This document shows, one piece after another, positions 29,172 to 44,284 of a stretch of 50,738 nt of DNA. The stretch covers positions 1 to 50,738 of the forward strand of contig CAMAYU010000025.1 of assembly GCA_945862235.1 (NCBI GenBank), given 5' to 3'. The notes beneath the pieces were generated by a model, which did not search any database, was not told where the DNA came from, and saw nothing but the letters and a program-made list of their open reading frames with translations. Made by a program: the position numbers and the translations under genes. Origin of the DNA: Schlesneria paludicola DSM 18645 (lineage in GTDB: Bacteria; Planctomycetota; Planctomycetia; Planctomycetales; Planctomycetaceae). Numbering within the stretch: the first letter of the stretch is position 1; the number at the start of each line of letters is the position of its first letter.

Positions 29172-29273
29172 GAATCGCGTCTCCTTCCGTGGAGAGATTG
29201 CTTCGCGGTGAAAGTGGGCATTGCAGCGAGGACGGTTTCGATAGTGCTGCGGCCCTGTCTTGGCTGTTGCTTT

Positions 29274-29322
29274 GTCCCCTCGCCCCGGCTCTGCGGGGAG
29301 AGGGCTAGGGTGAGGGGTTCTT
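29274..29322. repeat. Repeat copy c (GAGAGGGCTAGGGTGAGGGG family)
   Basis: A 49-bp stretch whose inverse is nearly identical, about 47 of 49 positions, to 37372-37420 inside glpD; a second, more diverged copy sits at 37301-37348. It contains a hairpin of CCCCG/CGGGG type. It is located upstream of lnt. The rest of the 29172-29514 gap holds the palindrome at 29417-29479 and no gene. Confidence 0.8.
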
Positions 29323-29416: not shown

Positions 29417-29479
29417 GGGGTCAGGTGGTTCAAAGTTCAATTTTCGCTGCGAAAATTGAACTTTGAACCACCTGACCCC
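29417..29479. repeat. Perfect 63-bp palindrome, 31-bp arms
   Basis: Arms at 29417-29447 and 29449-29479 are exact inverse copies around a single central T. The outer end is GGGGTCAGGTGGTTCAAAG. A run of CCCTTTTT follows on the + strand. Part of one arm (ACTTTGAACCACC) recurs at about 31145-31157. It could act as a terminator between lnt and moeA, but the arm is longer than needed. Confidence 0.85.
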
Positions 29480-30798: not shown

Positions 30799-30920
30799 GA
30801 TCGAAGATGCCTCGTCCGTAAGAGTGGCCTCCGCACGAGGCCGGTCCAACACGGGCGGCGATGATATCGCTTCATCAAGCTGGAGGCAGGTTAAACTCCG
30901 CGCGGTCAGTAATGAGACAT

Positions 30921-31137
30921 CTGAGCGGGGCGGCGTAAGCCCAATGGCACTCATTTTGTCATTCACCCCGTGAGCGGCACGGCGCTAGCCGCCGGTTCTT
31001 TCCTTGGAAACACAACACCATCCACCGGCGGCTAGCGCCGTGCCGCTCAAAGTGAGTGCCATTGGGCGTAAGCCCCCCGGTTCTTGGGCGTAAGCCCTCT
31101 TTGGAAAAACCGGGGAGCTTACGCCGCCCCGCTCAGA
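30921..31137. repeat. Host palindrome interrupted by the 123-bp element (copy 1)
   Basis: The left end TGAGCGGGGCGGCGTAAGCC and the right end finishing in GCTTACGCCGCCCCGCTCAG are inverse copies. Without the inserted element the sequence matches the inverse of the intact palindrome at 38520-38607. The insertion point carries a 10-bp direct repeat, GGCGTAAGCC at 30932-30941 and 31065-31074. This fills most of the 30799-31175 gap between moeA and the lipoprotein gene. Confidence 0.9.
30942..31064. mobile_element. 123-bp MITE-like element, copy 1
   Basis: Ends are CAATGGCACTCA and its inverse; the 17-bp terminal repeat CAATGGCACTCATTTTG matches the other end with one mismatch. Inside lies another palindrome, GAGCGGCACGGCGCTAGCC with its inverse. 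Flanked by the direct repeat GGCGTAAGCC. It contains no gene, so movement would need an enzyme encoded elsewhere. Confidence 0.85.
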
Positions 31138-31175
31138 ATTTTTCACTTTGAACCACCAGCCCCCTCGACGAACCC

Positions 31176-32813
31176 TCACTTCACCAGAAACCGCAGCGAG
31201 TAACTCGCCTGCTTGCCGCTCAGGTCATCGACGACGGTCAGCTTGAGCGTGTGTGGGCCGAGGGGCAGGCGGTCGGGGATCGTGAACTGGTAGTTGTGGA
31301 AGTAGTCGCGGCGCGGGTTGCGGCAGCGGTCTTCGGTCGCGGCAAACGTCTTGTGCCAGCGAGTCTGGCCGTTCGCACCGATGATGTCGATGACCGAACG
31401 GAGCAGAGTCCGATGTTCGCCGTCGGGCGTTTGCTCGGTGTTGAAGTTCTCGATCTCGGCGTACAGCAGCACTTCCTGACCGGGAGTGAACTCATCTCGC
31501 GCGAACTTCTGGTAGTTGCCGAAGTACGAAATCTGTTCGCAGAAGGCGGTGTTCTTGATCGACAAGTCCGCCTGTTCGCGCAGCCGGCGCAAGGCCGTGT
31601 TGAGCGGTGCGATCGACTGTGTCGCGCGATCACGCGGGAGCGGGAACTGTTCGGCATCGAGTGAGTTCGACGCGGCCCAGCAGAGTTGCTGCCAATACTC
31701 CTGCTCGGACGCCTCCAAACCCGAGATCGCCGTCAGAGCTTGCTCGGGCCGTTGAGCGACCAAATACAACAACCTTAGATGGACCTGGCGGCGACGGTAC
31801 TCGGCCTGCGCCGCGACACTCGATCCCGGCGACATGTCCTTCAATTCACCTTCCACGCGCGCAATGAGCTGATTCACTTCCGACTGCCACGGACTGGGCG
31901 GAAGCGGCGGCGCAGCTTGAGAATTGACGGGCTGCACTCGCAACGCGGGACCACGTAGCGCTGGACCGTGCGTATCTCTCTTGGGCGTGGGAAGCACTTC
32001 ACCGAGCGGCACATTGTGAAATCCATCCGCCGTGTTGCTCGCCTCGCGACGGGGAAGTACTCCGCCGTATTCCATCGGCGAACGAAGAGGAACTGAGACT
32101 CCCGCAGACGGACGACTACTCCACATCGGCAGCTCGTTCGCGATCGTTGAAGATGCTGGCGGCGCGATCGCCTCGAACCCCTGCAACTCAACCGGGTTGT
32201 CGGAGGCATCCTGATCGGAGCGGTAATTCGCCGTGCGGAGGCCCGAATTGGCGGTCTGATCCGGCCGCTGTTCTTCCGTCCACGCCACCGCCTGAGTGAT
32301 GGGGGACCGCGCACCGTTTTCTAGCTCAACGGCCGGTTGATCGGTGGAGTGACCGCCGAACAGCAGTGTCGCGCCGGAGTCATCGCGTTGTGCCAGTGTG
32401 AGACGGCCCGGCTCAAGACCTCGCACGGACAGCTCGTCACTGCGTGTCGTCGTCGCATCGTCCGCCGTCACCCTGCTCTCGCGTCGCGGCAGCCCCGGAA
32501 CGATGGCCGGTTCGTGTTGCAAACCGCGATCATTTAGAGGCGATTCGTGGAGGGATGCTTCAACCGCTTTCTGTGATCGGTGCGTGACAAGACCGCGCGA
32601 CGCAGCCTCGCGCGGCGAACGAGTCTCCCGCACTTCCACCCCATCGCTCGTAGGCTTGCTCCGCGCGGACAGCATGCTTCGCGCTGCGGTCTCATCGCTC
32701 AATGAAACCTGTTTTCCGAGACCGCTCATGCGACTCGGCGCGGACAGAGCGCAGCCCGAGGCTGCACACAGCCCCAGTCCGAGCCACAGCAGCGGACCGA
32801 CACGGCGAATCAT
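31176..32813 (-). CDS. Lipoprotein of unknown function with C-terminal beta domain
   Basis: 545 residues. The signal peptide ends in LGLCAASGCALS, a lipobox (Cys about 21). Residues 30-300 are low-complexity and Ser/Arg/Pro-rich with no recognised domain. From about 310 come helices (ELKDMSPGSSVAAQAEYRRR, PEQALTAISGLEASEQEYW), and the last 120 residues (EVLLYAEIENFNTEQTPDGE to HTLKLTVVDDLSGKQASYSL) look like an Ig-type beta sandwich. I know such proteins only as conserved hypotheticals of planctomycetes. The ATG at 32813 puts the signal first; a GTG at 32828 is an alternative. Confidence 0.72.
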   Translation of the reverse strand: MIRRVGPLLWLGLGLCAASGCALSAPSRMSGLGKQVSLSDETAARSMLSARSKPTSDGVEVRETRSPREAASRGLVTHRSQKAVEASLHESPLNDRGLQHEPAIVPGLPRRESRVTADDATTTRSDELSVRGLEPGRLTLAQRDDSGATLLFGGHSTDQPAVELENGARSPITQAVAWTEEQRPDQTANSGLRTANYRSDQDASDNPVELQGFEAIAPPASSTIANELPMWSSRPSAGVSVPLRSPMEYGGVLPRREASNTADGFHNVPLGEVLPTPKRDTHGPALRGPALRVQPVNSQAAPPLPPSPWQSEVNQLIARVEGELKDMSPGSSVAAQAEYRRRQVHLRLLYLVAQRPEQALTAISGLEASEQEYWQQLCWAASNSLDAEQFPLPRDRATQSIAPLNTALRRLREQADLSIKNTAFCEQISYFGNYQKFARDEFTPGQEVLLYAEIENFNTEQTPDGEHRTLLRSVIDIIGANGQTRWHKTFAATEDRCRNPRRDYFHNYQFTIPDRLPLGPHTLKLTVVDDLSGKQASYSLRFLVK

Positions 32814-33031
32814 GAGCGAACTCAACACGGGAAGAACAGACTTTGACAGGGAGAGCGTTCGATACAGATGTGTTCACGGCGCGCGTCCCTTCAGAACGAC
32901 GGGACGCAGCCGCACGACGATGATCAAGTTGAAAAGGGAGGAACAGGGGCGGGAACCTAGTAAAACGGGCAAAACACGACAAGATCATCCGCCCGGTCAA
33001 CGAGGCCACCGCCCTGTTAAATTTGGGAAAC

Positions 33032-33131
33032 GGGTGCCACGGTCACGGAGTCCTCGACGTGGCCGTGTGAGAACTCCAAGCCGATTTCCCAATCTCACGG
33101 CCACGTCGAGGACTCCGTGACCGTGGCACCC
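33032..33131. repeat. Long inverted repeat (GGGTGCCACGGTCACGGAG type)
   Basis: Arms at 33032-33072 and 33093-33131 are inverse copies except for a 2-base difference at the inner end, with a 20-base loop. A second copy begins at 50664 and is cut by the window end. It lies in the 32814-33365 gap, where no gene is seen. Confidence 0.8.
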
Positions 33132-33365
33132 AAGTTGAAAAAGACGATGGCCTTGCGTGGGCGGTGACTCTGCTCTGATTGTGCGGCCGATACCTCGTAA
33201 GGCCATGAATGAAATGTTCGAGGCGAGCCGTGTACCGTCAGGCCACGGGTTTCCCGCGAACATGAAGAACCCGCAGCCTGACGGCATGCGGATCGCCAAT
33301 CTCTCAGTTTGGGCCGCGTGGAGTAGAAATCACCGGCCGCACTTTGCCCTCAACTGGACCGCTCC

Positions 33366-34655
33366 ATGAAACCCTGCTCAACCTGCGGCCAAGCGACTTC
33401 CGAAACGGCGCGGCTGTGCGAACACTGCGGCGCGCCCGTGATCAAGTCCCCCACGGATAACGTCGAGCTGGCGGATCGCGTTCGGAGACTGGCCGCCGAG
33501 GGACAAAAACTCGAAGCGATCAAACTGCTGCGCGAGGCCACTGGCGTCGGGTTGGCCGAAGCGAAGGCGGGCGTCGAGGCGATCGAACGCGGCAACCTCA
33601 TCACGTTCTCTGGAAGCGATGGCACTCCGGGTGGCTTGAGCCACGAAATCGAACAACAACTGCTCCGGCTCGTCCAAGAGGGCCAAAAGATTCAAGCGAT
33701 CAAGCTCTACCGCGAACACACGTCGAGCGGCCTGAAGGAGGCGAAGGAGTTCGTCGAATCATTGGCCGCACAACGAGGAATCGTCACCCCGCGCGGTGGG
33801 TGTCTGGGCGTACTGCTCGGCCTGATGATCGCGTTCATCTTCGCTGCCACCTGCGTCACGCGGGCGTTCGGCGAAGACGCCGCCTTGAAAACGACGATCT
33901 CACGCGGTGAGAAGTCAGTCGAAGGTTGGATCACACACACCGTTGAGTCCGAGTTCCAAGCCAAGCCGACCGAGATTCGCGTCCTGCTGCCGGACAAGTA
34001 TGACTCGGCAAAAATGTCGCGCGTCCTGTTCGTCCTCTCCGTCGAAGCGGGGCGAGAATCAAAGTACGGCGACGGGTTGGCCGAAGTGAAACGACTCGAC
34101 CTGCACAACAAACACGGCTTGATCTGCGTGGCCCCGACATTCGCCCACCTGCCGTGGTACGTGGACCATCCGACCGACAAGTCGATCCGGCAGGAGACCT
34201 ATTTCGTGCAGGTCGTCGTCCCATTCATCGACCGAACCTACCAAGTGAGAGCCACGCGCGAGGGGCGACTTCTCCTCGGCTTCAGCAAGTCAGGCTGGGG
34301 CGCGTGGAGCCTGCTCGCCCGGCATCCCGATCTCTTCGACAAAGCCGCCGCTTGGGACGCGCCACTCGACATGCCCCGTTTCGATCTCTATGGAGCAGCC
34401 CAAGTCTTCGGCACTCAGGAACACTTTGAATCGCGCCGCGTCCTCCCCGCGATTCTCAACTGCCCCGACCTCAAAGCGACTTCACCGCGTTTGGTCCTGA
34501 CCGGCTACGACAACTTCCGCACTCAACACGAGACCGCCCATCGACTCCTCGACGAAGCCAAGATCCCGCACGTCTATCGCGACGGCCCCAAGCTCAAGCA
34601 CCTCTGGAACAGCGGCTGGGTCGAGGAGGCGGTGGAACTGCTGTTGGCGGATTGA
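33366..34655 (+). CDS. Zinc ribbon - double L7/L12-C-like - TM - esterase fusion
   Basis: 429 residues. Cys4, Cys7, Cys18 and Cys21 form a zinc ribbon. Residues 33-77 and 93-138 are two repeats with the L7/L12 C-terminal pattern: EGQKLEAIKLLREATGVGLA-EAK and EGQKIQAIKLYREHTSSGLK-EAK. A membrane helix (about 147-163) follows. Residues 175-429 are an alpha/beta hydrolase of esterase type: GFSKSGWG near residue 305 carries the nucleophile Ser, and a His candidate is in PKLKHLWNSGW. The repeats would be cytoplasmic and the enzyme periplasmic. No stop or frameshift divides it, and both halves are intact. Each module is known; the combination I have not seen described. Flanked by repeats on both sides. 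Confidence 0.75.
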   Translation: MKPCSTCGQATSETARLCEHCGAPVIKSPTDNVELADRVRRLAAEGQKLEAIKLLREATGVGLAEAKAGVEAIERGNLITFSGSDGTPGGLSHEIEQQLLRLVQEGQKIQAIKLYREHTSSGLKEAKEFVESLAAQRGIVTPRGGCLGVLLGLMIAFIFAATCVTRAFGEDAALKTTISRGEKSVEGWITHTVESEFQAKPTEIRVLLPDKYDSAKMSRVLFVLSVEAGRESKYGDGLAEVKRLDLHNKHGLICVAPTFAHLPWYVDHPTDKSIRQETYFVQVVVPFIDRTYQVRATREGRLLLGFSKSGWGAWSLLARHPDLFDKAAAWDAPLDMPRFDLYGAAQVFGTQEHFESRRVLPAILNCPDLKATSPRLVLTGYDNFRTQHETAHRLLDEAKIPHVYRDGPKLKHLWNSGWVEEAVELLLAD

Positions 34656-34687
34656 GGACGTGGCGGATCAAGAACGGTCGTTTTTCA

Positions 34688-34914
34688 GAGTGAGCTTTGG
34701 TGAGCCGGGTGCCGTGAGGCCCCGGACTCTTTGTCGTACAAGTCCGGGGCCTCACGGCCAATGGCACTCACTTTGTCATTCACTCCGTGAGCGGCACGGC
34801 GCTAGCCACCGGTTCTTTGCTTGGAAACACAACTCCGTTTACCGGCGGCTAGCGCCCCGCCGCTCAAAGTGAGTGCCATTGGCCTCACGGCACCCGGCTC
34901 ACCAAAGCTCACTC
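34688..34914. repeat. Host palindrome (41-bp arms) interrupted by copy 2
   Basis: The left arm, 34688-34728, is a perfect inverse of the right arm, which begins at 34741 and ends at 34914 once the inserted element and its duplicated 10 bp are removed. Arm ends read GAGTGAGCTTTGGTGAGCC, and the inner part reads CCCCGGACTCTT. The insertion point carries GCCTCACGGC at 34749-34758 and 34882-34891. It fills the 34656-34962 gap; no gene is seen there. Confidence 0.9.
34759..34881. mobile_element. 123-bp MITE-like element, copy 2
   Basis: Perfect 17-bp terminal inverted repeat CAATGGCACTCACTTTG, same length as copies 1 and 3, with an internal palindrome that has several substitutions (GCCCCGCCGC instead of GCCGTGCCGC). 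Flanked by the direct repeat GCCTCACGGC. Confidence 0.85.
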
Positions 34915-34962
34915 GATTGTCGATGTGCCGACCCCAAGTTTGAACAACCACCAACGGGTGGG

Positions 34963-36363
34963 CTACTTCAGCTCAAACCCGACATCAGCGGGACGGCCTT
35001 GTTCGGATTCGATGGCTCCTTCGTTGTCGGTGCCGTCTTCGCCGACGCTCCAGACGAGGGCCTTGGTGGGTGAGTCGCGGCGGTAGAGGAGTCGCCCGCC
35101 GCTGCGATGACACGGGTCGAGTGGGACCGCTTCCAAATAGTCGGGGACCAGTGCGTCGAGGCTCGCGGGGAACTCGCCCTTGTCGCGGCGATAGGCCTGC
35201 GCGGCGAGCATCACTTCCAGCGCGGTTTGTCGTCCGCGAAAGCGTTGAACGCCATCGTCCACCTGCTTCGTGACGGGGAAGATCATCTTGCTGACGATCG
35301 ACAGCTTCGCTACGCGGTCGATCTGGGTGGGGTCGAGTTCACCGGGGGCACGGGCCACGGTGGGATCGGTGTCGAACAGCATCACGAGGCCAGAGCCGAC
35401 CAGCTTGCGACGCAAGGCCAGCGGCTGGTCGATCTCGCGAGTTTGGTTGGAGATGATGTGGCGGAACAGGCGGATGGTCAGCTCAGGTTCACCGACCATC
35501 CAAAAGAACCCACGTTGAACTCGCTCGGGAATATCACCCGGTTGTCCACCTACGGGACCAAGGTTAGCCATCCAACCGGGAATTCTCAGCGAGTTCCGCA
35601 GCGCGAGGTACTCGGTCCTGAGCATGTTCGATTGGGACTCGTACAGCGAGAAGTCGGCTTTGACTTGTGCGAGGCCCGCTCGCAATTGATCGGCCGTCAC
35701 GGCGGGATGCTCGGCCCATCGCTGCATTCCACCTGAAGACATGGCATGGAGCGCGGCGCCGAACAATCCGGAAATCATCGGTCCGCGATGCGACGCATGA
35801 CCGCCGCTGCGATAGCCCGCGCGGGCCAATTTCCACGCTTCATCGACATCCCCTTCGTGCAGACACCGCATCTGATCGATCAGCCCGATCCGGACAAAAC
35901 TGCGCAGCTCTTGAGCCGCCGCCAGATGCGTGGAAAACGTCATCGTGGCGGGAGACACATCGAGTGCCCGCTCCTTCTCAGACCCGCGCCGCCAGAGAGC
36001 CAGCGCCGGGCGATGGTCATCGATCCACGTCCGCATCGCTGCGTCGGCCGCCTCCCAACCTTGCTTGTAGACCTCGTCGTGATTGGCCGGTTCGGTCACT
36101 CCCTTGAGACGCATGCCTTCAATCAACTGCACTCGCATCGACTGTGCGGCGCGATACTCGGTGAAGGCGTTCTCCTCGGGAGGAATCACGTCGCCGACAA
36201 ACGCCTCCACGTCGAATGGCTCGCCCATATCAGGAACGTTCGCTAAGAAGCACGCTCGCACCGCAAACGGTGTCAGGGCGATCAGCACCACCACGAACAA
36301 GCCCCAGACCGACCAAGGCCAGTTCCAACACTTCCACCACGCCGCATGAGTTTCATCCGTCAT
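34963..36363 (-). CDS. Membrane protein with pseudopilin-like C-terminal segment
   Basis: 466 residues. One membrane segment near residues 17-38 (SVWGLFVVVLIALTPFAVRA), then a helical extracytoplasmic region. The end contains LAAQAYRRDKGEFPASLDAL followed by VPDYLEAVPLDPC and GGRLLYRRDS, which resembles the C-terminal part of type II secretion pseudopilins (GYPxxLxxLVPxYLxxxPxDP). The N-terminus is not a prepilin signal. Proteins with this tail are frequent in planctomycetes and of unknown function. It is convergent with the fusion gene and separated from glpD by a 119-bp divergent spacer. Confidence 0.7.
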   Translation of the reverse strand: MTDETHAAWWKCWNWPWSVWGLFVVVLIALTPFAVRACFLANVPDMGEPFDVEAFVGDVIPPEENAFTEYRAAQSMRVQLIEGMRLKGVTEPANHDEVYKQGWEAADAAMRTWIDDHRPALALWRRGSEKERALDVSPATMTFSTHLAAAQELRSFVRIGLIDQMRCLHEGDVDEAWKLARAGYRSGGHASHRGPMISGLFGAALHAMSSGGMQRWAEHPAVTADQLRAGLAQVKADFSLYESQSNMLRTEYLALRNSLRIPGWMANLGPVGGQPGDIPERVQRGFFWMVGEPELTIRLFRHIISNQTREIDQPLALRRKLVGSGLVMLFDTDPTVARAPGELDPTQIDRVAKLSIVSKMIFPVTKQVDDGVQRFRGRQTALEVMLAAQAYRRDKGEFPASLDALVPDYLEAVPLDPCHRSGGRLLYRRDSPTKALVWSVGEDGTDNEGAIESEQGRPADVGFELK

Positions 36364-36482
36364 CGCACGCCCCCCCTAAGGCAATTTGTCTTTCGCTGAT
36401 TTGCAGCATAATCGAGGAACATGTCCGTTTGCCATCCTAGCTCTTCCGCCGACTCTCATTCCCTTCACAACGGACTCTCGCC

Positions 36483-38471
36483 ATGACCTCACTTGGATCG
36501 ACAGACAGTTCGCCGGAACAAGCCGCTCGACCTGTGCTCGTCCTCGGTGGCGGGATTCATGGCGCGGCCGTCGCGCGCGAGTTGGCTCTGAACGGCGTAC
36601 CGGTGGTGCTGATCGACGCGAACGACCTCGCGGCCGGGGCGACGTCCAAATCGTCGCGGCTCATACATGGCGGGTTGAGGTATCTCGAATACGGCGACGT
36701 GCGGCTGGTGCGTGAGTCGCTGATCGAACGGCGGCGGTTACTCGAACTCGCGCCGCATCTGGTTCGTCCACTCAGGCTCTTCGTCCCGACGACGCAGCGT
36801 TGGTCGGGGCTGCTCCGATCGGTACTCGGGTTCTTCAAGTTGGCTCGGACGCGACTTGGCCGTTGGTTGCTGAGCCGTGCGGAACGACGCGCACCGCGCG
36901 GCTATTGGCCCGTGCGCATCGGCCTGTGGATGTATGACCTGTTCTCGTGGGGTGACGGGCTGCCGAAAAGTCGCGGGGGACGGCGAGGGGCAAGGGCTGA
37001 GGGGCAAGGGACGGAGCAGAACCTGGCAGCGGCGGATTCATCGGCTGTCCCTCGTCCCTCAGCCCTCGCCTCTCAGCCCCTTGTCGATCCTCAACGCTAC
37101 CGCTGGATGGCCGAGTACTCCGACGCGCAGATGGTCTACCCCGAACGGTGCGTCTTCGACCTATTGGCCGATGCAGAACAATCGGCGCGTGAACAAGGAA
37201 CGCTGTTTGAAGTCATCCCTCATGCCAAGTTGGAGTGGCACGGTTCAGCGATCCGCATCCTCGGGTCTGCTCTGAGTTCCAACTCGCCCGACTCACCAAG
37301 CCCCCCTCACCCTAACCCTCTCCCTCCAAAGTCGGGGGGCGACGGGACAAGGCCGGAAGCGAAGGCAGAAGAACCCCTCACCCTAGCCCTCTCCCCGCAG
37401 GGCCGGGGCGAGGGAACAAGAAGCGCCGCAACGAAATCGCTTGCTGACTTTCAACCATCAACTCTCCACTATCAACCCTCCTTCACCCCGTCCCTCATCA
37501 TCAACGTCAGCGGTGCGTGGGGCGACATCACGTTGAACGGGATCGACGCCGGGACGACGCCGTTGTTCGCCGGGACGAAAGGGAGTCATTTCATTACGAG
37601 GCACCCGCAACTCAAGGCGGCTCTCGGTGACGGCGGTGTCTATGCGGAGACGGCTGATCGACGACTTTGCTTCATCCTGCCGCTGGGTGACGCGGTGCTC
37701 GTTGGCACGACGGACGAACGTTGGTCGGGACCACCCGAGGACGCTGTCGCCAGCGATGCGGAACTCGACTACTTACTCAGCCTCGTGCAAACGGTGTTCG
37801 GTCTGACACTGAGTCGCTTCGATATCGTCGCCCACTACAGCGGCGTGCGGCCGCTTCCGCGCACGACCGACACCAACAACGCGGCCGTCTCGCGTGACCA
37901 CTCGCTCGTCGAGCATCGACTGCATGGAGTCCACATCGTCACGCTGGTCGGGGGCAAACTGACGACGTTCCGTTCGGTCGCGGAACAAATCGCAGATCGC
38001 GTGCTGCGGCAACTCGGGATCACACGACAAACGTCCACATGCGAGCGGTTGCTCGCTGGTTCAGACGACTTTCCGCGCGAGTCGTCTGAGTGGCCAAAGC
38101 TCTGGCAACAATGGGCGACCGATTATGGCACGACCGCTGAAGAGGCCAACGCCCTCTGGCCGCTGTACGGAATGAGAACGAGAGAGATCCTCGCCGCAGT
38201 CGCCCCGCAGCCGCTCATCGTTGTCGCCGACACACCGTTCACGACGCGCGTCGTCCGCGGGGTGATCGAACGCGAATGGGTCACGACGCTCGACGACTTG
38301 ATCGAACGCCGGCTGATGCTGGTCTTCGCACCCAACCTCACGCTCGGCACGTTGCAGGACTTGGCGGAGTGCCTCGTCGCGTCAGGCCGTCTGACTGCGG
38401 ATGCGGTTCCATCCGCGATCAGGTCCACGCGAGAGAGACTGCTCACGCATTACGGCCGCGCCGTGACTTAG
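36483..38471 (+). CDS. glpD: Glycerol-3-phosphate dehydrogenase GlpD with in-frame repeat inserts
   Basis: 662 residues, longer than the usual 500-550. FAD-dependent oxidation of sn-glycerol 3-phosphate at the membrane. Residues 17-40 (VLVLGGGIHGAAVARELALNG) are the FAD Rossmann motif; SKSSRLIHGGLRYLEYGDV is the family signature; VSGAWGDITLNG and LGDAVLVGTTDERW are later FAD/substrate parts. Two additions break the family pattern: residues about 163-198 (Arg/Gly/Ala-rich) and about 264-334 (containing PPHPNPLPP and LTLALSPQGRGEGTR). Both are encoded by repeat sequence and keep the frame. The sequence on either side continues the conserved fold, so the enzyme is probably functional with two extra loops. 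Confidence 0.93.
   Translation: MTSLGSTDSSPEQAARPVLVLGGGIHGAAVARELALNGVPVVLIDANDLAAGATSKSSRLIHGGLRYLEYGDVRLVRESLIERRRLLELAPHLVRPLRLFVPTTQRWSGLLRSVLGFFKLARTRLGRWLLSRAERRAPRGYWPVRIGLWMYDLFSWGDGLPKSRGGRRGARAEGQGTEQNLAAADSSAVPRPSALASQPLVDPQRYRWMAEYSDAQMVYPERCVFDLLADAEQSAREQGTLFEVIPHAKLEWHGSAIRILGSALSSNSPDSPSPPHPNPLPPKSGGDGTRPEAKAEEPLTLALSPQGRGEGTRSAATKSLADFQPSTLHYQPSFTPSLIINVSGAWGDITLNGIDAGTTPLFAGTKGSHFITRHPQLKAALGDGGVYAETADRRLCFILPLGDAVLVGTTDERWSGPPEDAVASDAELDYLLSLVQTVFGLTLSRFDIVAHYSGVRPLPRTTDTNNAAVSRDHSLVEHRLHGVHIVTLVGGKLTTFRSVAEQIADRVLRQLGITRQTSTCERLLAGSDDFPRESSEWPKLWQQWATDYGTTAEEANALWPLYGMRTREILAAVAPQPLIVVADTPFTTRVVRGVIEREWVTTLDDLIERRLMLVFAPNLTLGTLQDLAECLVASGRLTADAVPSAIRSTRERLLTHYGRAVT
36982..37080. 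repeat. Imperfect inverted repeat inside glpD (insert 1)
   Basis: GGCGAGGGGCAAGGGCTGAG starting at 36982 is mirrored by a sequence ending at 37070-37080, with several mismatches and about 35 bases between. It encodes the first extra loop of GlpD. Confidence 0.75.
37301..37420. repeat. Two tandem copies of the CCCTCACCCTA repeat inside glpD (insert 2)
   Basis: Copy a at 37301-37348 and copy b at 37372-37420 each run from CCCCTCACCCTAnCCCTCTC to a G-rich end. Copy b is nearly identical to the inverse of 29274-29322 upstream of lnt. Read in frame, copy b gives LTLALSPQGRGEGTR. Confidence 0.85.
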
Positions 38472-38519
38472 CACGGATTGCAGACCAAGGTTGACTAGCC
38501 CGATCACAAAAGTGAGAGG

Positions 38520-38607
38520 CCGCTGAGCGGGGCGGCATAAGCCCCCTGGCTCTTCCAAAGAGGACTTACGTCCCAAGAACCGGGGGGCTTACGCCGCCCC
38601 GCTCAGA
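38520..38607. repeat. Intact host palindrome (empty site matching 30921-31137)
   Basis: TGAGCGGGGCGGCATAAGCC at the left end and an inverse arm ending GCCGCCCCGCTCAG at the right, with inner GGCTCTTC and GAAGAACC. Its inverse aligns with the 30921 palindrome minus the inserted element. It sits in the 38472-38709 spacer downstream of glpD; a short GGGCAAGAGTGCCC hairpin lies near 38670. Confidence 0.85.
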
Positions 38608-38709
38608 GATCTCATCACGGACCAGGTGATGGCAAGTTGAAAGACACGTTGTTCCAGTCAGGTCGGGACGGGCAAGAGTGCCCATCCTACACAGGACCGA
38701 ACGTGTGAC

Positions 38710-39216
38710 TCAGAACTCGGGCGCGAGCTTGTTGCCTGCGGGGAGCAGGAGCGGGTTCGAGAGACCTTCTTGAACGACGCCGGGGGCGAACCGCGCGTCT
38801 GTCTCAAACAAGTTGCGACCGTCGGAAGGAGAAGACGGCGCGAGTCGCCACGTCAGCGGGGACGTTGTTCCGAATTCTCGCTGCACGGAGGAGATCGAAA
38901 CGGCGACCATCAGCAGCGCGGCGAGAGCCATCGCAGCGGCGGGGATCCAGCCGTTGAAGCGGTCTCGCCCACGCGGCCATTCCGGCAACGCAGCGGCGAC
39001 GAGCGGCCAGAGACTGGGGCGTGAGTGTGTCTCAAGCTCCATCGCCGAGGTCGAGATCGTTTGCAGGGCGTCGAGGCTGAGTTGCAGGCGACGCTGTTGC
39101 TCGCGGCATTTCGGGCACGCGGCCACATGAGCACGCAGAGCCTCGACTTCAGTCGTGTCCGAGAGATCGTTTCCGATCCACAACGGCAAGAGTCGGCGGG
39201 ATTGTTCGCAATTCAT
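38710..39216 (-). CDS. Anti-sigma factor, zinc-finger (zf-HC2) type
   Basis: About 168 residues. The N-terminal 45 contain CEQSRRLLPLWIGNDLS and HVAACPKCREQ, the His-x3-Cys-x2-Cys zinc anti-sigma motif. A membrane helix (GWIPAAAMALAALLMVAVSI) lies near the middle, and the C-terminal third faces the periplasm. It should hold the sigma factor encoded just upstream and release it on an envelope signal. The start at 39216 is preferred because GAGG sits 8 bases before it; an in-frame ATG at 39243 would overlap the sigma gene by 11 bp. Confidence 0.82.
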   Translation of the reverse strand: MNCEQSRRLLPLWIGNDLSDTTEVEALRAHVAACPKCREQQRRLQLSLDALQTISTSAMELETHSRPSLWPLVAAALPEWPRGRDRFNGWIPAAAMALAALLMVAVSISSVQREFGTTSPLTWRLAPSSPSDGRNLFETDARFAPGVVQEGLSNPLLLPAGNKLAPEF

Positions 39217-39232
39217 GGCGATGGCCTCGGCG

Positions 39233-39907
39233 TCATTGGTCATTGGTCATTGGGGTAGAGCTGTCAGGAGTTTGGTCAGATTCGTTGAGCAGCGAGGGAT
39301 CGGCATCACGTCGTCTGACCCAGACTTCTTCAAACATGCGGCGGGCTTCGGCCAGTCGCCAGCGAATCGTCGCCTCTTTGCGCCCGAGCATCGCCGCGAT
39401 CTCGGATGTGGAAAAGTTTTGCAGGTCTCGCAGCATCAGCACGATGCGATAGTTTTCGGGAATCTGATCGAGGACTTTCTCAACCTCTTGTTGCAGGTCG
39501 AGTGCTTGCCGCGGGTCGGCGGTGGCGGGATCGGGTTGTCTTTCCGTGCGGTGATCGGTGAACAGCAGCCACCAGCCGCGACGCTTTCGCCGCCGCAAGT
39601 GGTCCAAAGTTTGGTTGACCCCAATCCGAAACAGCCAGGGCCCGAATCGTCGTGCGGGGTCGAACTGTTCCAGCCGCTCGTAAGCTTTGATGAACGTTTC
39701 CTGGGCGAGGTCTTCGGCCTGCTCGACGCTCTTCACAAATTGCAGGATGACACGGATCAGCCGCCGTTCATAACGCACGACCAATTCGCCGAACGCCTGC
39801 TTGCTGCCATGACGTGCCTCGTCCACCAGCCGCGCCTCATTCGTCGCGCCGCCGAGGTCATCCGACTCGAAGGTTGTCAGGTCAGGAAGTGCCATTGTGC
39901 TGTGCAT
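39233..39907 (-). CDS. ECF RNA polymerase sigma factor
   Basis: About 224 residues. Region 2: FGELVVRYERRLIRVILQFV and EDLAQETFIKAYERL with RFGPWLFRIGVNQTLDHLRR, the -10 recognition part. Region 4: QIPENYRIVLMLRDLQNFST and SEIAAMLGRKEATIRWRLAE, the -35-binding helix-turn-helix. Linked by a variable loop. The ATG at 39907 is a best guess; GTG 39916 and ATG 39895 are in frame. Its last codons overlap or abut the anti-sigma gene, the usual pairing. Confidence 0.9.
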   Translation of the reverse strand: MHSTMALPDLTTFESDDLGGATNEARLVDEARHGSKQAFGELVVRYERRLIRVILQFVKSVEQAEDLAQETFIKAYERLEQFDPARRFGPWLFRIGVNQTLDHLRRRKRRGWWLLFTDHRTERQPDPATADPRQALDLQQEVEKVLDQIPENYRIVLMLRDLQNFSTSEIAAMLGRKEATIRWRLAEARRMFEEVWVRRRDADPSLLNESDQTPDSSTPMTNDQ

Positions 39908-40163
39908 GAGTGTCACCGACCGGAGAATACGCCGGTGGTGGCAACAGTGTTGGATGCGAGTTCGTCTGCGGATCGGATTGTAGCGGCGGGCCGGAACCGG
40001 TGTCTCGTCCCGGCGATTCTGCTAGCATCCCGCCCCGTTCACACGGTTTCGCTCGAGAGAGGTGTCTCGACGGATCCGTTTGATCGGACCTTGGCACGGA
40101 CGCCAAACGACCTCTCAGCGCGCGTTCCAGCGCGCCTCAACGCAAGACGCGGAATCACGAAGC

Positions 40164-40970
40164 GTGTGGAAGCAGCTAGCCAATCAATGGGCCTTGGTGA
40201 CCGGAGCCAGCACGGGACTCGGGGCCGAGTTCGCGCGCCAATTGGCTTCGCGCGGGATGCACTTCGTGTTGGTCGCCCGTCGTCGCGAATTGATGGAGGC
40301 GCTGGCTGCGGAGCTGCTCACGCAACACGGCACGCGCTGCATCGTCATCGTTTCCGACTTGTCTGAACCAGATGAGCCGCAACGAATCCTGAACGAGATC
40401 GCGGCGCAGGGCATCGTGATCGAACTATTGGTCAACAACGCGGGCTTCGGGATCGTGGGCGAGGCCGACGCCACCGATGTCGATCGCGTGCTGAACATGA
40501 TCCGGCTGAATATTTCGGCGACGGCGGAACTCACGCATCGCCTGCTTCCCGGCATGTTAGAGCGAGGACACGGGGCGATCTTGAACGTGTCTTCGCTCTC
40601 GGCGTTTCAGCCGGTCGCTTACATGGGAGCCTACGCCGCCAGCAAAGCGTTCGTGCTGCACTTCAGCGAGGCGCTGCACTGTGAACTGAAAGAGCGCGGC
40701 ATCACGGTGACCGCCGTCTGTCCCGGCGTGACTCGCACGGCTTTCTTCGATATCGCGGGAGCACCCGGCTGGCTTCAGAAGCACGCGGCGCTGGATGTCG
40801 ATTTCGTGGTGAAGCAGTCGCTGAAGGCGCTCGCTCGCCGCCGCCAGTGCTATGTCCCCGGCTGGCGCAATTTTTTGCTGACGCTGCTCGTCCGCTTCGC
40901 CACACGATCGCGCGTCGTCAAAGAGTCGATGCGATTCTTTAAGCCCAAGCGACCGCCGAAGTCGCCGTAG
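40164..40970 (+). CDS. Short-chain dehydrogenase/reductase
   Basis: About 268 residues. [20 protein letters not shown] is the TGxxxGxG cofactor loop; [13 protein letters not shown] the NNAG strand; [20 protein letters not shown] then KAFVLHFSE the catalytic Ser, Tyr and Lys (YxxSK as YAASK). It reduces or oxidises an alcohol/ketone with NAD(P)H; substrate unknown. The C-terminus is basic with a hydrophobic stretch ([15 protein letters not shown]), which could associate with membrane. The GTG at 40164 is a guess; a GTG at 40062 would add 34 residues of little family likeness. A perfect 8-bp inverted repeat (CCAATGTC, 40972-41002) follows, without a T tract. Confidence 0.88.
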
Positions 40971-41078
40971 CCCAATGTCATCCCGAGACCGGGCGACATT
41001 GGAAGAAACCCTCAAGCTCTGCGGCTGATGCTGCCGATGGAGTGCGGATGCTCTGCACTTCCTTTCGGTGATTCGATT

Positions 41079-42029
41079 ATGCCGCCACGCAAACGCCCGA
41101 CCGGTGCGATCACTGTTGATGTGGCTCGTCCCGCTGATCCTGCATTGCATTTGCCGAACTTCATCAACTATCTGCGAGCCGAATGCGGGCTGAGTGACAA
41201 CACCGTCTTGGCCTACGGGCGAGACCTAGCCCAATTCAACGGCTGGTTTCGCGAGCATGGTCCCGCTCGCCTTCAACAGGTCGAGTTACCGCTGTTCTCC
41301 GACTACATGGGATATCTCAACGAGCAAGACTACGCCGCGACTTCGATCGCCCGGCACTTGGTCTCGATTAAGATGTTTTTCCGGTACTTGGTCTTGGAAG
41401 GCGTGATCCCCGAGAGCATCGTGGAACTGGTGAACTCGCCGAAGTTGTGGCAACACCTGCCGAAAGTCCTCAGCCCCGACAACGTGGACCGGCTGCTGGC
41501 CTCACCCGCGCGGGCCGATCGTTACCCACTCCGTGACCGGGCGCTACTCTGTCTGCTCTATGCGACCGGCTGCCGGGCGTCCGAAGTCTGCACGATCACA
41601 CTGCGAGACATTCACCTCGACGAAGGCTATTGCCGGTGCATCGGGAAGGGGAACAAGGAGCGAATGGTCTCGCTGAACCCGGTCGCGCGTGCGGCAGTCG
41701 AAGCGTACTTGCAACACGAACGCCCCAAGTTGACTACGTCGAACGAGCAAAGTTCGCCGCTGTTGATTTCGCGCGGCGGGAAGTCGCTCTCGCGAATCAC
41801 AGTCTGGAAACTCGTGAAACGCTACGCGGGCCGGATCGGAGCGAGCCGCACGATCAGCCCGCACACGCTCAGACACAGCTTCGCGACGCATATGCTGGCG
41901 GGGGGGGCCGAGATTCGCGCTCTTCAAGAATTGCTCGGCCACGCCAGCATCCGCACGACTCAGATCTACACGCAGGTCGAACACAGTCGTCTGAAGGCGA
42001 TCCACGAGAAGTGCCATCCACGCGGGTGA
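41079..42029 (+). CDS. xerD: Tyrosine recombinase XerC/XerD
   Basis: 316 residues. The N-terminal SAM-like domain (ECGLSDNTVLAYGRDLAQF) precedes the catalytic domain with all active residues in order: Arg166 in GCRASEV, Lys in GKGNKER, His262 and Arg265 in HTLRHSFATHML, His288 in LLGHASI, Tyr297 in TTQIYTQVEH. It is a housekeeping-type XerC/D, resolving chromosome dimers at dif, rather than a phage integrase: normal length and no element genes nearby. XerD is favoured over XerC only weakly. The start at 41079 is preferred over 41028 by family N-terminus. Confidence 0.88.
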   Translation: MPPRKRPTGAITVDVARPADPALHLPNFINYLRAECGLSDNTVLAYGRDLAQFNGWFREHGPARLQQVELPLFSDYMGYLNEQDYAATSIARHLVSIKMFFRYLVLEGVIPESIVELVNSPKLWQHLPKVLSPDNVDRLLASPARADRYPLRDRALLCLLYATGCRASEVCTITLRDIHLDEGYCRCIGKGNKERMVSLNPVARAAVEAYLQHERPKLTTSNEQSSPLLISRGGKSLSRITVWKLVKRYAGRIGASRTISPHTLRHSFATHMLAGGAEIRALQELLGHASIRTTQIYTQVEHSRLKAIHEKCHPRG

Positions 42030-42147
42030 GACTGCGCGGGCCACGATCTGAATCCCGCCTGTGTCACGGTATGTCGGCCGTATTAGCCGGAGTCGTTTCA
42101 TCGCCTCGCTGTCGTCTATACCTCGCACGGCCAAGATTGACGCAGAG

Positions 42148-42241
42148 CCGTTTAACCGCGTGGGCAACGCTCCGCGCGTTCAGCGACGTGGAATTGTGTT
42201 TCGCCCTACGACGCGCGGAGCATTGCTCACACGGTTAACTG
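42148..42241. repeat. Imperfect inverted repeat downstream of the recombinase gene
   Basis: GTTTAACCGCGTGGGCAACG at the left is mirrored with a few mismatches by a sequence ending CACACGGTTAACT, with CGCGCGGAGC/GCTCCGCGCG inside. It directly abuts the next palindrome. Part of the 42030-42697 gap, which has no gene. Confidence 0.6.
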
Positions 42242-42335
42242 CCTGTGGAAAAACGTAGAGTAGGCGGCTCACCTGCTTGCTTTTCTAGGCGAAAAACAGA
42301 GGCGAGCCGCCAGTGCTACGACTTTTTCCACAGGC
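42241..42335. repeat. Palindromic repeat, GCCTGTGGAAAAA ends (CGTAG...CTACG family)
   Basis: GCCTGTGGAAAAA at 42241-42253 is mirrored at 42323-42335; CGTAG/CTACG and GGCGGCTC/GAGCCGCC lie inside. The core matches the type at 6066-6139. T-rich ends could make it double as a terminator. Confidence 0.7.
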
Positions 42336-42697
42336 GGTGAAACGACGCGACAACTGCCACGCGATTCTGGGCACGAACCGCTCAGATTCCTGCGATCTCG
42401 CTCCCGCCGATGAAACCGTTAGAACGCATTTTCTCGAAACAACCAGAATAGCTTGTGTAGCCGGACTTCCTTGGCCGATGAATACAAGGAGCGGGGACAC
42501 GGCGCGCCTCGCCGGTGGAGCATTTTGTTTCACTAGACGAACGGTGGCGGGCGGTTCGGGCGATGATTCATCGCACGAAGCGTCTACCGGCAAAAAACAC
42601 GAGGCGGACCGAAGCCATTCTCGGTTCAAGTTGTGGTCGGGTGCCCCGTCCCAACGGATTCGGAGACGGTCAGCGAGGAATTGAAGGAGAACATTCC

Positions 42698-43903
42698 ATG
42701 CGTAAGTACGGGAAGTGGGTGTTGACGCTGGGATTGCTGGCAGCAACTCCCGGGCTGACACTCGCCGCCGGGCCGAAGTCCAATACGGACGAGAAGCCTG
42801 CGGCAGGAGCCAGGAAGACCACCAAGACGGAAAACCAGAAGGTGGCCGAGGACATTGCCAAGGCGATGCGCGGCAAAGTTCAGGGCGATGTGAACATCGA
42901 GTACAAGGACGGAGTGGCCACTCTGTCGGGATCGGTCGCCGACCCCAAGATCAAGGAGAAGGCTTCAGCCCTCGTTTCCAAGGTCGATGGGGTGTCGCGA
43001 GTCGACAACCGCTTGGCCGTCACCGAGAAGAACCGACGCTTCACCGCGAAGATGTCGGAACAACCGGCGGAACGTGGCGGCGTGGTCTCGGCAGCCCATG
43101 AGGCAGGCGGACAACGTGGTCGCCAAGTCCAGCAGGTCAACGGCGAAGTCGCCGCTCCTGCTGCCGGTAGCAACCAGGAAGTGGCCGAGCAAATCGGTGC
43201 CGCTTTGACTTCGGCCAATCTCGACGGCTACGACATTCAGATCCGTTACTCGAACGGCACCGCGATGCTCGACGGCAGCGTCGGGACTCAGACCGAACGA
43301 GCCAACGCTTCGCGCGTCGTCTCGTCGATCCCCGGTGTTCGATCGGTCGCCAATCGACTGTCTTGCACGGAAGAGGCGGCTCGCCCCCAAGCTGGTCCTC
43401 GCGGACCAATGGGACCGGGCGGACCAATGGGACCGGGCGGACCGGGTGCTCAGTACGGCCAAAGTCCCTACGGACCCGGCCCACAAGGTGGCATTCAAGG
43501 TGCTGGCTATCGTCAACAGGGACCGGGACCGGGGCTAGGGCAGCCAATGCCAGGTCAACCGGGTCCGGGGATGATGCCCGCAGGTGCGATGCCAATGGGA
43601 CCAGGTGGACCTCCCGGCTATGGTCATCCGGGCGCGGGTGCTTCGCAGGCGGTCTACAACAACCCCAGCCTGCCAGACTATGCGTGGCCTTCCTACGCTC
43701 AGTACCCGAACTCGGCGGCTGTGAACTACCCAACGCAGTACAGCGCGAGTGCCTTCCCCTACATTGGTCCGTTCTACCCGTACCCACAGGTTCCGCTCGG
43801 CTGGCGCGACGCGACACTGCGATGGGATGACGGCCAATGGAACCTGATGTTCCGCTCACGCACTGACAAGTGGTGGTGGTTCATGAGTCCGAGCAATTGG
43901 TGA
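42698..43903 (+). CDS. BON-domain periplasmic protein with Gly/Pro-rich linker
   Basis: 401 residues. Signal peptide MRKYGKWVLTLGLLAATPGL ending near LAAG. Two BON domains follow: DVNIEYKDGVATLSGSVADP (about 70-110) and YDIQIRYSNGTAMLDGSVGT (about 175-215). After that come 120 residues rich in Gly, Pro and Met (GPMGPGGPMGPGGPG), then an aromatic C-terminus with WRDATLRWDDGQWNLMFRSR. BON domains bind membranes or other macromolecules in the periplasm. The ATG at 42698 follows an AAGGAG site. A strong terminator ends it; its function is otherwise unknown. Confidence 0.83.
   Translation: MRKYGKWVLTLGLLAATPGLTLAAGPKSNTDEKPAAGARKTTKTENQKVAEDIAKAMRGKVQGDVNIEYKDGVATLSGSVADPKIKEKASALVSKVDGVSRVDNRLAVTEKNRRFTAKMSEQPAERGGVVSAAHEAGGQRGRQVQQVNGEVAAPAAGSNQEVAEQIGAALTSANLDGYDIQIRYSNGTAMLDGSVGTQTERANASRVVSSIPGVRSVANRLSCTEEAARPQAGPRGPMGPGGPMGPGGPGAQYGQSPYGPGPQGGIQGAGYRQQGPGPGLGQPMPGQPGPGMMPAGAMPMGPGGPPGYGHPGAGASQAVYNNPSLPDYAWPSYAQYPNSAAVNYPTQYSASAFPYIGPFYPYPQVPLGWRDATLRWDDGQWNLMFRSRTDKWWWFMSPSNW
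43403..43438 (+). repeat. 18-bp tandem repeat in BON gene
   Basis: GGACCAATGGGACCGGGC twice in tandem, encoding GPMGPG repeats of the linker. It may vary in copy number between strains. Confidence 0.7.
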
Positions 43904-44010
43904 TCGTCGGTCGTTCCTGCGGATGAATTCCTTCCGCAGGAGCAGCCTCGCCGAATCCGCTTAGTGCTTGGGCGAGTGACGATCAACTCGCCCATCGGTT
44001 ACGAATGGCT

Positions 44011-44049
44011 CAGCGTCTGCGAGACCCCTCGCAGACGCTGCTTTCGTTT
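44011..44049 (+). terminator. Strong terminator after BON gene
   Basis: A 13-bp perfect stem (CAGCGTCTGCGAG at 44011-44023 and its inverse at 44028-44040) with the 4-base loop ACCC, followed by CTTTCGTTT. A smaller hairpin TCCTGCGGA/TCCGCAGGA precedes it at 43915-43941. Confidence 0.85.
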
Positions 44050-44080
44050 AGAGACGAAACCGAGAAAGCTGAGATGATTT

Positions 44081-44284
44081 GGTGAGCCATTGGCCGTCAG
44101 GCCCCGGATTCTTGACCAAGAATCCGGGGCCTGACGGCACCCGGCACTCACTTTGTCATTCACCGCGTGAGCGGCACGGCGCTAGCCGCCGGTTCTTTGC
44201 TTGGAAACACAACTCCATCCACCGGCGGCTAGCGCCGTGCCGCTCAAAGTGAGTGCCATTGGCCTGACGGCACCCGGCTCACCA
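44081..44284. repeat. Host palindrome with copy 3 and an internal inversion
   Basis: Outer ends are GGTGAGCC at 44081-44088 and GGCTCACC at 44277-44284. The core 44089-44142 (54 bp, ATTG at its left edge, ACCC at its right edge) reads correctly only if inverted: then both the host arm and the element end match the other copies. The insertion carries GCCTGACGGC at 44129-44138 and 44262-44271. Beyond 44284 the gap up to 44613 shows nothing recognisable. Confidence 0.85.
44139..44261. mobile_element. 123-bp MITE-like element, copy 3
   Basis: Same length and inner palindrome as copies 1 and 2. The right end is CAAAGTGAGTGCCATTG. The left end starts ACCC in place of CAAT, which the 54-bp inversion explains exactly. 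Flanked by the direct repeat GCCTGACGGC. Confidence 0.85.

Follow-up and report, generated by a model that had tools for sequence, protein, structure and literature searches.

We analysed a 50,738-nt stretch of Schlesneria paludicola DSM 18645 (contig CAMAYU010000025.1, or C25, of assembly GCA_945862235.1; hereafter the window) that carries three 123-bp elements, each lying within a larger palindrome and between two copies of a 10-bp direct repeat. We are highly confident that these are miniature inverted-repeat transposable elements (MITEs) mobilized in trans by a transposase of the IS4 family (DDE/YREK), which acts through the terminal sequence CAATGGCACTCACTTTG, with duplication of a symmetric 10-bp target that is built into the arms of the palindromes. 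Bacterial MITEs are short and noncoding, occur in many similar copies and carry the terminal and target repeats of a full-length insertion sequence (IS). The features on which this account rests are as follows, with a strand where one was assigned.

30942-31064, + strand: MITE copy 1, 123 bp, terminal repeats matching at 16/17 positions (sequence inspection, pairwise comparison)
34759-34881, + strand: MITE copy 2, 123 bp, terminal repeats 17/17 (sequence inspection, genome search, pairwise comparison)
44139-44261, + strand: MITE copy 3, 123 bp, with ACCCGG as its altered left end (sequence inspection, pairwise comparison)
30932-30941, + strand: 10-bp target duplication GGCGTAAGCC, left of copy 1
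31065-31074, + strand: 10-bp target duplication GGCGTAAGCC, right of copy 1
34749-34758, + strand: 10-bp target duplication GCCTCACGGC, left of copy 2
34882-34891, + strand: 10-bp target duplication GCCTCACGGC, right of copy 2
44129-44138, + strand: 10-bp target duplication GCCTGACGGC, left of copy 3
44262-44271, + strand: 10-bp target duplication GCCTGACGGC, right of copy 3
30920-31137: host palindrome 1, B type (TCTGAGCGGGGCGGCGTAAGCC...), with copy 1 in its left arm
34688-34914: host palindrome 2, A type (GGTGAGCCGGGTGCCGTGAGGCC...), with copy 2 in its right arm; arms 100% complementary
44080-44284: host palindrome 3, A type, with copy 3 in its right arm

The first-pass annotation had placed three 123-bp stretches with perfect 10-bp flanking repeats inside host palindromes, and our inspection confirmed all three. 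Its description of near-identical copies with 17-bp terminal repeats held in part: the elements share 113, 115 and 111 of 123 bases in pairwise comparison, and the full 17/17 match is found in copy 2 alone. The terminal repeats of copy 3 agree at 13/17 positions, its left end reading ACCCGGCACTCA (ACCCGG) where CAATGGCACTCA (CAATGG) is expected. With up to one mismatch allowed, the end motif GAGTGCCATTG occurs eight times in the window compared with 0.97 expected, a count reached by none of 100 shuffles. The window was also said to lack a transposase, in agreement with the absence of contig C25 from the 15 PF01609 matches and the four IS4-protein matches in the same genome (9 of 18 candidates scored in the IS4 search). 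No Rfam match at gathering scores was found in the window.

The elements are abundant throughout their own genome (G000; 6,834,489 bases in 377 contigs). Exact matches to the 11-bp motif GAGTGCCATTG numbered 149, against two for a mirrored control, and the complete 17-bp end was found exactly 115 times (55 + 60). Searching with the 123-bp sequence retrieved 189 candidates, the best 40 of which were scored; MITE copies are up to 98% identical, from which we infer that this genome had or has an active source. Host palindrome sequence adjoined at least one side of all 30 loci returned from the 189 candidates, flanks being judged by eye. Fifty copies in this genome have both ends, and 40 of them measure 123 bp, the rest being 53, 62, 73, 112, 116, 124, 125 or 197 bp long. 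At a threshold of 75% identity to the standard arm sequences, 35/50 copies are flanked by standard outer and inner arm (21 in the right arm, 14 in the left), so that they cluster on both sides at one position of a repeated palindrome, and host sequence is present on at least one flank of 12 more (47/50 in total). An intact palindrome was recognized by score at 35/50 copies; under a loose motif rule, 22 of the hosting palindromes are of type A, 18 of type B, six mixed and four unclassified.

Comparison of the end motif and its flanks across the genome thus placed most copies in the arms of one palindrome family, with 10-bp repeats of at most one mismatch at 41/50, and the genome as a whole gives good support to the first-pass reading, in which the elements transposed into a preferred repeated palindrome and duplicated 10 bp of target. 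The repeats of the 50 copies are exact in 24, differ at one base in 17 and at two or more in nine. We then considered all loci fetched for matching the ends, accepting up to four mismatches per end and six in sum, which gave 109 non-redundant two-ended insertions, 49 of them with exact 10-bp repeats; this set retains probable chance pairings (L064, L076, L175 and one of two at L083) and omits rows with <30 bases on either side and short pairs >360 bases apart. The consensus of the 49 exact repeats, taken on both strands, is G(0.96) G(0.89) C(0.99) N4 G(0.99) C(0.89) C(0.96), and G[GC]CN4G[GC]C stands on at least one flank of 48/50 copies in the own genome and 96/109 of all insertions. An empty palindrome has the 10-mer once in each arm, in inverted orientation, and the direct repeat therefore arises with the insertion. 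Under our proposal, insertion would occur across the symmetric target GGC-N4-GCC (also GCC-N4-GGC), which becomes duplicated, and most copies would land in the arms of the abundant resident palindrome because the target 10-mer is built into each of them.

The first-pass annotation had suggested looking for a full-length element, and a relative proved to carry one that shares the left end and encodes a transposase. At this locus (L199), a 1493-bp element has a left end matching exactly at 17/17 positions, a right end matching at 14/17 (three mismatches) and a single open reading frame (ORF) for a 472-aa protein, the stop codon of which lies inside the left end. The protein matches PF01609 and the NCBIfam IS4 model NF033592 (145 bits, cut-off 115; L199 alone was scanned), and its D-80-D-108-E spacing falls within D(60-110)D(100-150)E. 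The Y(2)R(3)E(6)K motif, YFQRNHIEIDIRNIK in L199, was present at nine of ten loci examined, and the tenth (L251) gave no match to it within one stop-free frame. By eye, the ends CAATGGCACTCACTTTG and TAATGGCACTTACTTTA fit the IS4-subgroup signature -AATR--------WTW. No PDB sequence matched the L199 transposase at E 0.1. The mover of the window elements is thus very probably an IS4-family transposase, and the elements themselves are therefore very probably MITEs. Such a transposase would act in trans on the MITE, recognizing the 17-bp end CAATGGCACTCACTTTG; we infer that it both binds these ends and chooses the target.

Related elements were sought in 170 genomes of the family. Searches with the L199 protein, in which at most the best nine candidates per genome were scored, gave a match at E ≤0.001 in 57/170, many of them weak. 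In the complete genome G032, each of the nine end pairs at full-length spacing (TAATGGCACTTACTT[TC]A) is bounded by a perfect 10-bp repeat, either GGCTAACGCC or GGCGTTAGCC, of the same kind as in the own genome; the transposase match is full in eight of these copies and broken in one, and a palindrome was detected at five of eight scored copies. Perfect repeats also bound all three copies in G033, and the repeats of a G025 copy (L247) are inverted. Among IS-length pairs that passed the filter, 8/12 have exact 10-bp repeats, a length close to one helix turn, some of the pairings being possibly due to chance. In the nine genomes searched for ends of the G032 type, pairs occur mainly at full-length spacing, with one G025 pair 440 bases apart; no MITE-sized pair was seen by eye among those listed for the nine genomes. 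In the own genome, a 112-bp copy with a G032-like end sequence lies on contig C2 (14327-14438). The exact 17-bp end was present in 16/170 genomes, including two of 15 in the own genus (115 matches in G000 and one in G138) and nine of 12 in genus g49, a patchy distribution which suggests that the element may have arrived horizontally. A scan of contigs for the ends retrieved at least 73 stretches, mainly from planctomycete metagenome assemblies, and scattered matches in other phyla look by eye like chance.

Other possible partners were also inspected. No matching end pairs were seen in the examined flanks of the 15 own-genome PF01609 loci, although one of these loci, L134 (contig C97), holds an open DDE element bounded by different ends. 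At locus L142 on contig C15 (917 to ~2100), a host palindrome contains an element end that differs at one base, and a broken DDE transposase resembling IS701 lies next to it. An IS701 transposase was dropped as a partner: the L142 protein is nearest to the IS701 model at 180 bits, below the cut-off of 250, and comparison by eye of the L142 ends with two G008 copies suggests a separate insertion in neighbouring DNA. A 30-base pattern made of the standard 17-bp end and the next L142 bases had no match in the contig collection. Three contigs of G021 end inside an element with the 17-bp end, and no interior was recovered from them.

Some sites appear to have been rearranged after insertion; the segment concerned in host palindrome 3 is listed here together with an unoccupied palindrome.

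44089-44142: host hairpin segment, apparently inverted after insertion; reversal restores the standard sequence of both the left arm and the element end
38516-38613: B-type host palindrome without an element, for comparison

The left arm of host palindrome 3 reads GGTGAGCCATTGG, the usual sequence being GGTGAGCCGGGTG. Because in silico reversal of 44089-44142 yields the usual arm and the usual element end together, a single inversion of this hairpin after insertion would be the simplest account of the altered end of copy 3. At L012 and L035, bases of the element end are present in the opposite host arm as well. The flanking 10-mers are near reverse complements of each other in 8/109 insertions, which is expected if left-arm and right-arm copies recombined or if the inner hairpin was lost. 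Strand switching or recombination after insertion could thus have produced the inversion, the end bases copied to the opposite arm and the inverted flank repeats.

To separate sequence from structure in target choice, we used an 850,738-base sample of the own genome, consisting of the first 40 kb of contigs C1-C20 and the window, with coding DNA masked by a crude longest-ORF rule. It contains 13 two-ended insertions, including copy 3 of the window. After removal of the elements, we detected 193 hairpins with arms of 20 bases or longer, 33 with host site sequence and 160 others, host-family membership being a motif-based class assigned by short site sequences in the arms. Nine of the 33 were occupied compared with 0/160 of the others (Fisher 4.6e-8), although at least one of the latter (C5, 8690) resembles the host palindromes and has an altered site. 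The remaining four of the 13 insertions lie outside detected hairpins, adjoining or within remnants of host palindromes. Exact host 10-mers were occupied at 7/45 sites in intact palindromes and at 3/26 noncoding sites elsewhere, with no significant difference (p 0.74), and relatives have perfect 10-bp repeats where no palindrome was detected, for example GGCTGCTGCC at L170, AGCCAGCGCC at L113 and GTGTCGCGCT at L106. The first-pass annotation had offered the cruciform itself as a possible targeting rule, which these results do not bear out: most insertions lie in an arm at GGC-N4-GCC, and hairpins without the host site sequence were left empty. The symmetric 10-mer is therefore mainly what directs targeting, and a cruciform is not required.

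It is unlikely, in our view, that the target is instead a structure, such that extruded cruciforms or hairpins attract the transposase and the 10-mer merely mirrors the sequence of common palindromes; the 160 empty hairpins, the occupancy of exact 10-mers, not significantly higher in intact palindromes than elsewhere, and the sites in relatives all argue against it. Two results lend it some weight. Among noncoding motif sites, 8/85 in palindromes were occupied versus 3/239 outside (p 0.0014), and those three are all in palindrome fragments. The loop of B-type host palindromes (for example, 31080-31100) often has the same 10-mer as the arms, GGGCGTAAGCCC, and loop sequence stood on both flanks of 0/50 copies in the own genome (on one flank of a few) despite 21 loop 10-mer sites in the sample. 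This avoidance counts against the 10-mer as the main rule; it does not separate arm sequence from pairing, because the loop flanks differ in sequence. In view of the motif sites and the loop, arm sequence or structure may contribute to target choice. We regard it as improbable that the copies are passengers, that is, that palindrome and element move as a composite whose direct repeats were inherited from a few insertions. Seven loci in G111 (L098, L099, L101, L103-L105 and L111) do share a near-identical composite between different flanks, in which one element end and the core lie between two host arms and the right element end is missing, and from these the host palindrome seems to be mobile as a unit. 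In the own genome, however, the elements occupy both palindrome types and both arms (21 right, 14 left) with different 10-mers, and in other genera full-length IS copies lie at 10-mers of this same type. Finally, the direct repeats could be parts of larger nested palindromes generated by replication slippage or template switching and not target duplications at all. The inversion at 44089-44142, the opposite-arm end bases at L012 and L035 and the near-reverse-complement flanks are what such events might leave behind, yet the repeat is 10 bp long in MITEs and full-length ISs alike, also outside the repeat family, and is bounded by constant ends, so that we give this explanation hardly any credence.

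Several further observations weigh against transposition by an IS4-family enzyme with target duplication in the palindrome arms. Exact 10-bp repeats are missing from 26/50 copies in the own genome, and 9/50 have two or more mismatches. Standard outer and inner arm flanks are lacking at 15/50, and host sequence is on neither flank of 3/50 (L044, L049 and L054), of which L049 is inside a host palindrome, off the arm site. Judged from the G111 composites, filled palindromes may not all represent separate insertions. The 10-mers flanking L199 itself differ (AGCGTACGCC/GGCTAATGCC). The own assembly, which is in 377 contigs and could be missing a repeated source, yielded no intact IS4 element bounded by these ends. 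What it has, on contig C26, is a broken IS4 relative, the left end of which, two mismatches off and beside GGCTAGCGCC, speaks for the IS4 account; this copy is in three pieces of 38-48% protein identity, and no right end was found.

The interior of the elements proved to vary among genomes. In copy 1 it is itself a palindrome:

30971-31049: core palindrome in copy 1 (TGAGCGGCACGGCGCTAGCCGCCGGT...); palindromes of this kind are also found on their own at other places in the genome

In other genomes, other palindromes lie between identical 17-bp ends: TAGCAGGCACATTCCATGTGCC in G111, G112 and G114, CCGAAGCGTCAGCGAGG in G118 and CCGGAACGCGCTAGCGTCCGG in G114, and the core in G105 and G110, TGAGCGGCA[AC]GGCGCTAGCC, is close to that of the window. 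Free-standing palindromes resembling the window core occur on contigs C16 and C19 of the own genome, and no element end was nearby at 24/30 loci with the CCGAAGCGTCAGCGAGG core and 7/30 with the TAGCAGGCACATTCCATGTGCC core, counts in which both arms of one palindrome may be included. Because such cores also occur alone, it looks as though a pair of ends had acquired a resident palindrome as its core, and not as though an IS had shrunk. The elements thus show repeats made of repeats, in which resident palindromes provide the cargo as well as the landing site. A more far-reaching version, which we put forward tentatively and consider doubtful, is that the IS4 ends form an interchangeable shell: each lineage would supply different resident palindromes as core, the shells would insert into other palindromes, parts would be traded by hairpin-directed strand switching, and target choice would read the paired hairpin arm together with the 10-mer.

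Based on the sections of the literature drawn on here, the elements are best described as IS4-family MITEs with a strong preference for a palindrome arm, and the nearest precedent is ISRm22 in REP sequences. ISRm22 is an IS4-family element of Sinorhizobium meliloti, all nine genome copies of which are reported to lie at one position of the REP palindrome; its target consensus is highly palindromic and GC-rich, its direct repeats are 6 bp long, insertion is at the axis of palindromy, and the imperfect repeats of three copies were ascribed to recombination between copies (PMC1525189, in the parts used). Likened by description, the two systems share IS4-family insertion at one position of a repeated palindrome and some imperfect repeats; they differ in that the planctomycete elements have 10-bp repeats and sit in the arm, and the main text of PMC1525189 does not contain the word MITE. 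For the IS4 subgroup, the relevant parts of PMC2266710 give a size of 1400-1650 bp, ends of the form -AATR--------WTW and direct repeats of 10-13 bp, and for the family D(60-110)D(100-150)E, the YREK motif and, in some members, a strong specificity of insertion within the target arms. The full-length relatives agree with this description in DDE spacing, YREK motif, size, ends and 10-bp repeats, whereas the window elements lack a transposase and the full-length relatives found here are planctomycete. As in bacterial MITEs (cf. PMC3733652), the elements are short, noncoding and multi-copy, with terminal repeats shared with a full-length IS, here in another genome; unlike in those, the core cannot be recognized as a leftover of the parent IS and is instead a resident palindrome, which varies by genome. 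Among the papers listed by searches of an open-licence collection, none dealt with MITEs or IS4 elements in planctomycete palindromes. The unusual parts are the exact target choice and the swapping of element middles, and we consider new the use of one pair of ends with different resident palindromes as core in different genomes and the hairpin-directed rearrangement after insertion. By inserting into dispensable repeats, a mobile element would be able to multiply while doing its host little damage. The sites provide a natural data set on how IS4-family elements find their targets, in which intact, broken and loop copies of the 10-mer act as built-in controls, and in the rearranged ones a natural genome would have kept a record of hairpin inversion and of templated copying.

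Other repeats were observed in and around the window. The abundant palindrome family ACCCGAAGCGTNAGCGAGG has 132 exact matches in the own genome, 278 in G111, 36 in G118 and 14 in G134, with none for the control. A perfect palindrome with 31-base arms, a 1-base loop and no element lies at 29417-29479 and has a relative on contig C12; a further palindrome, at 33032-33131, has 39-base arms that are 97% complementary, with similar ones on contigs C6 and C18. Two 51-base inverted copies of the CCCTCACCCTAGCCCTCTCCC repeat, at 29272-29322 and 37369-37419, are 96% complementary. The ORF at 33366-34655 shows an odd combination of matches, to the C-terminal part of ribosomal protein L7/L12 and to an esterase, together with a weak zinc-ribbon match.

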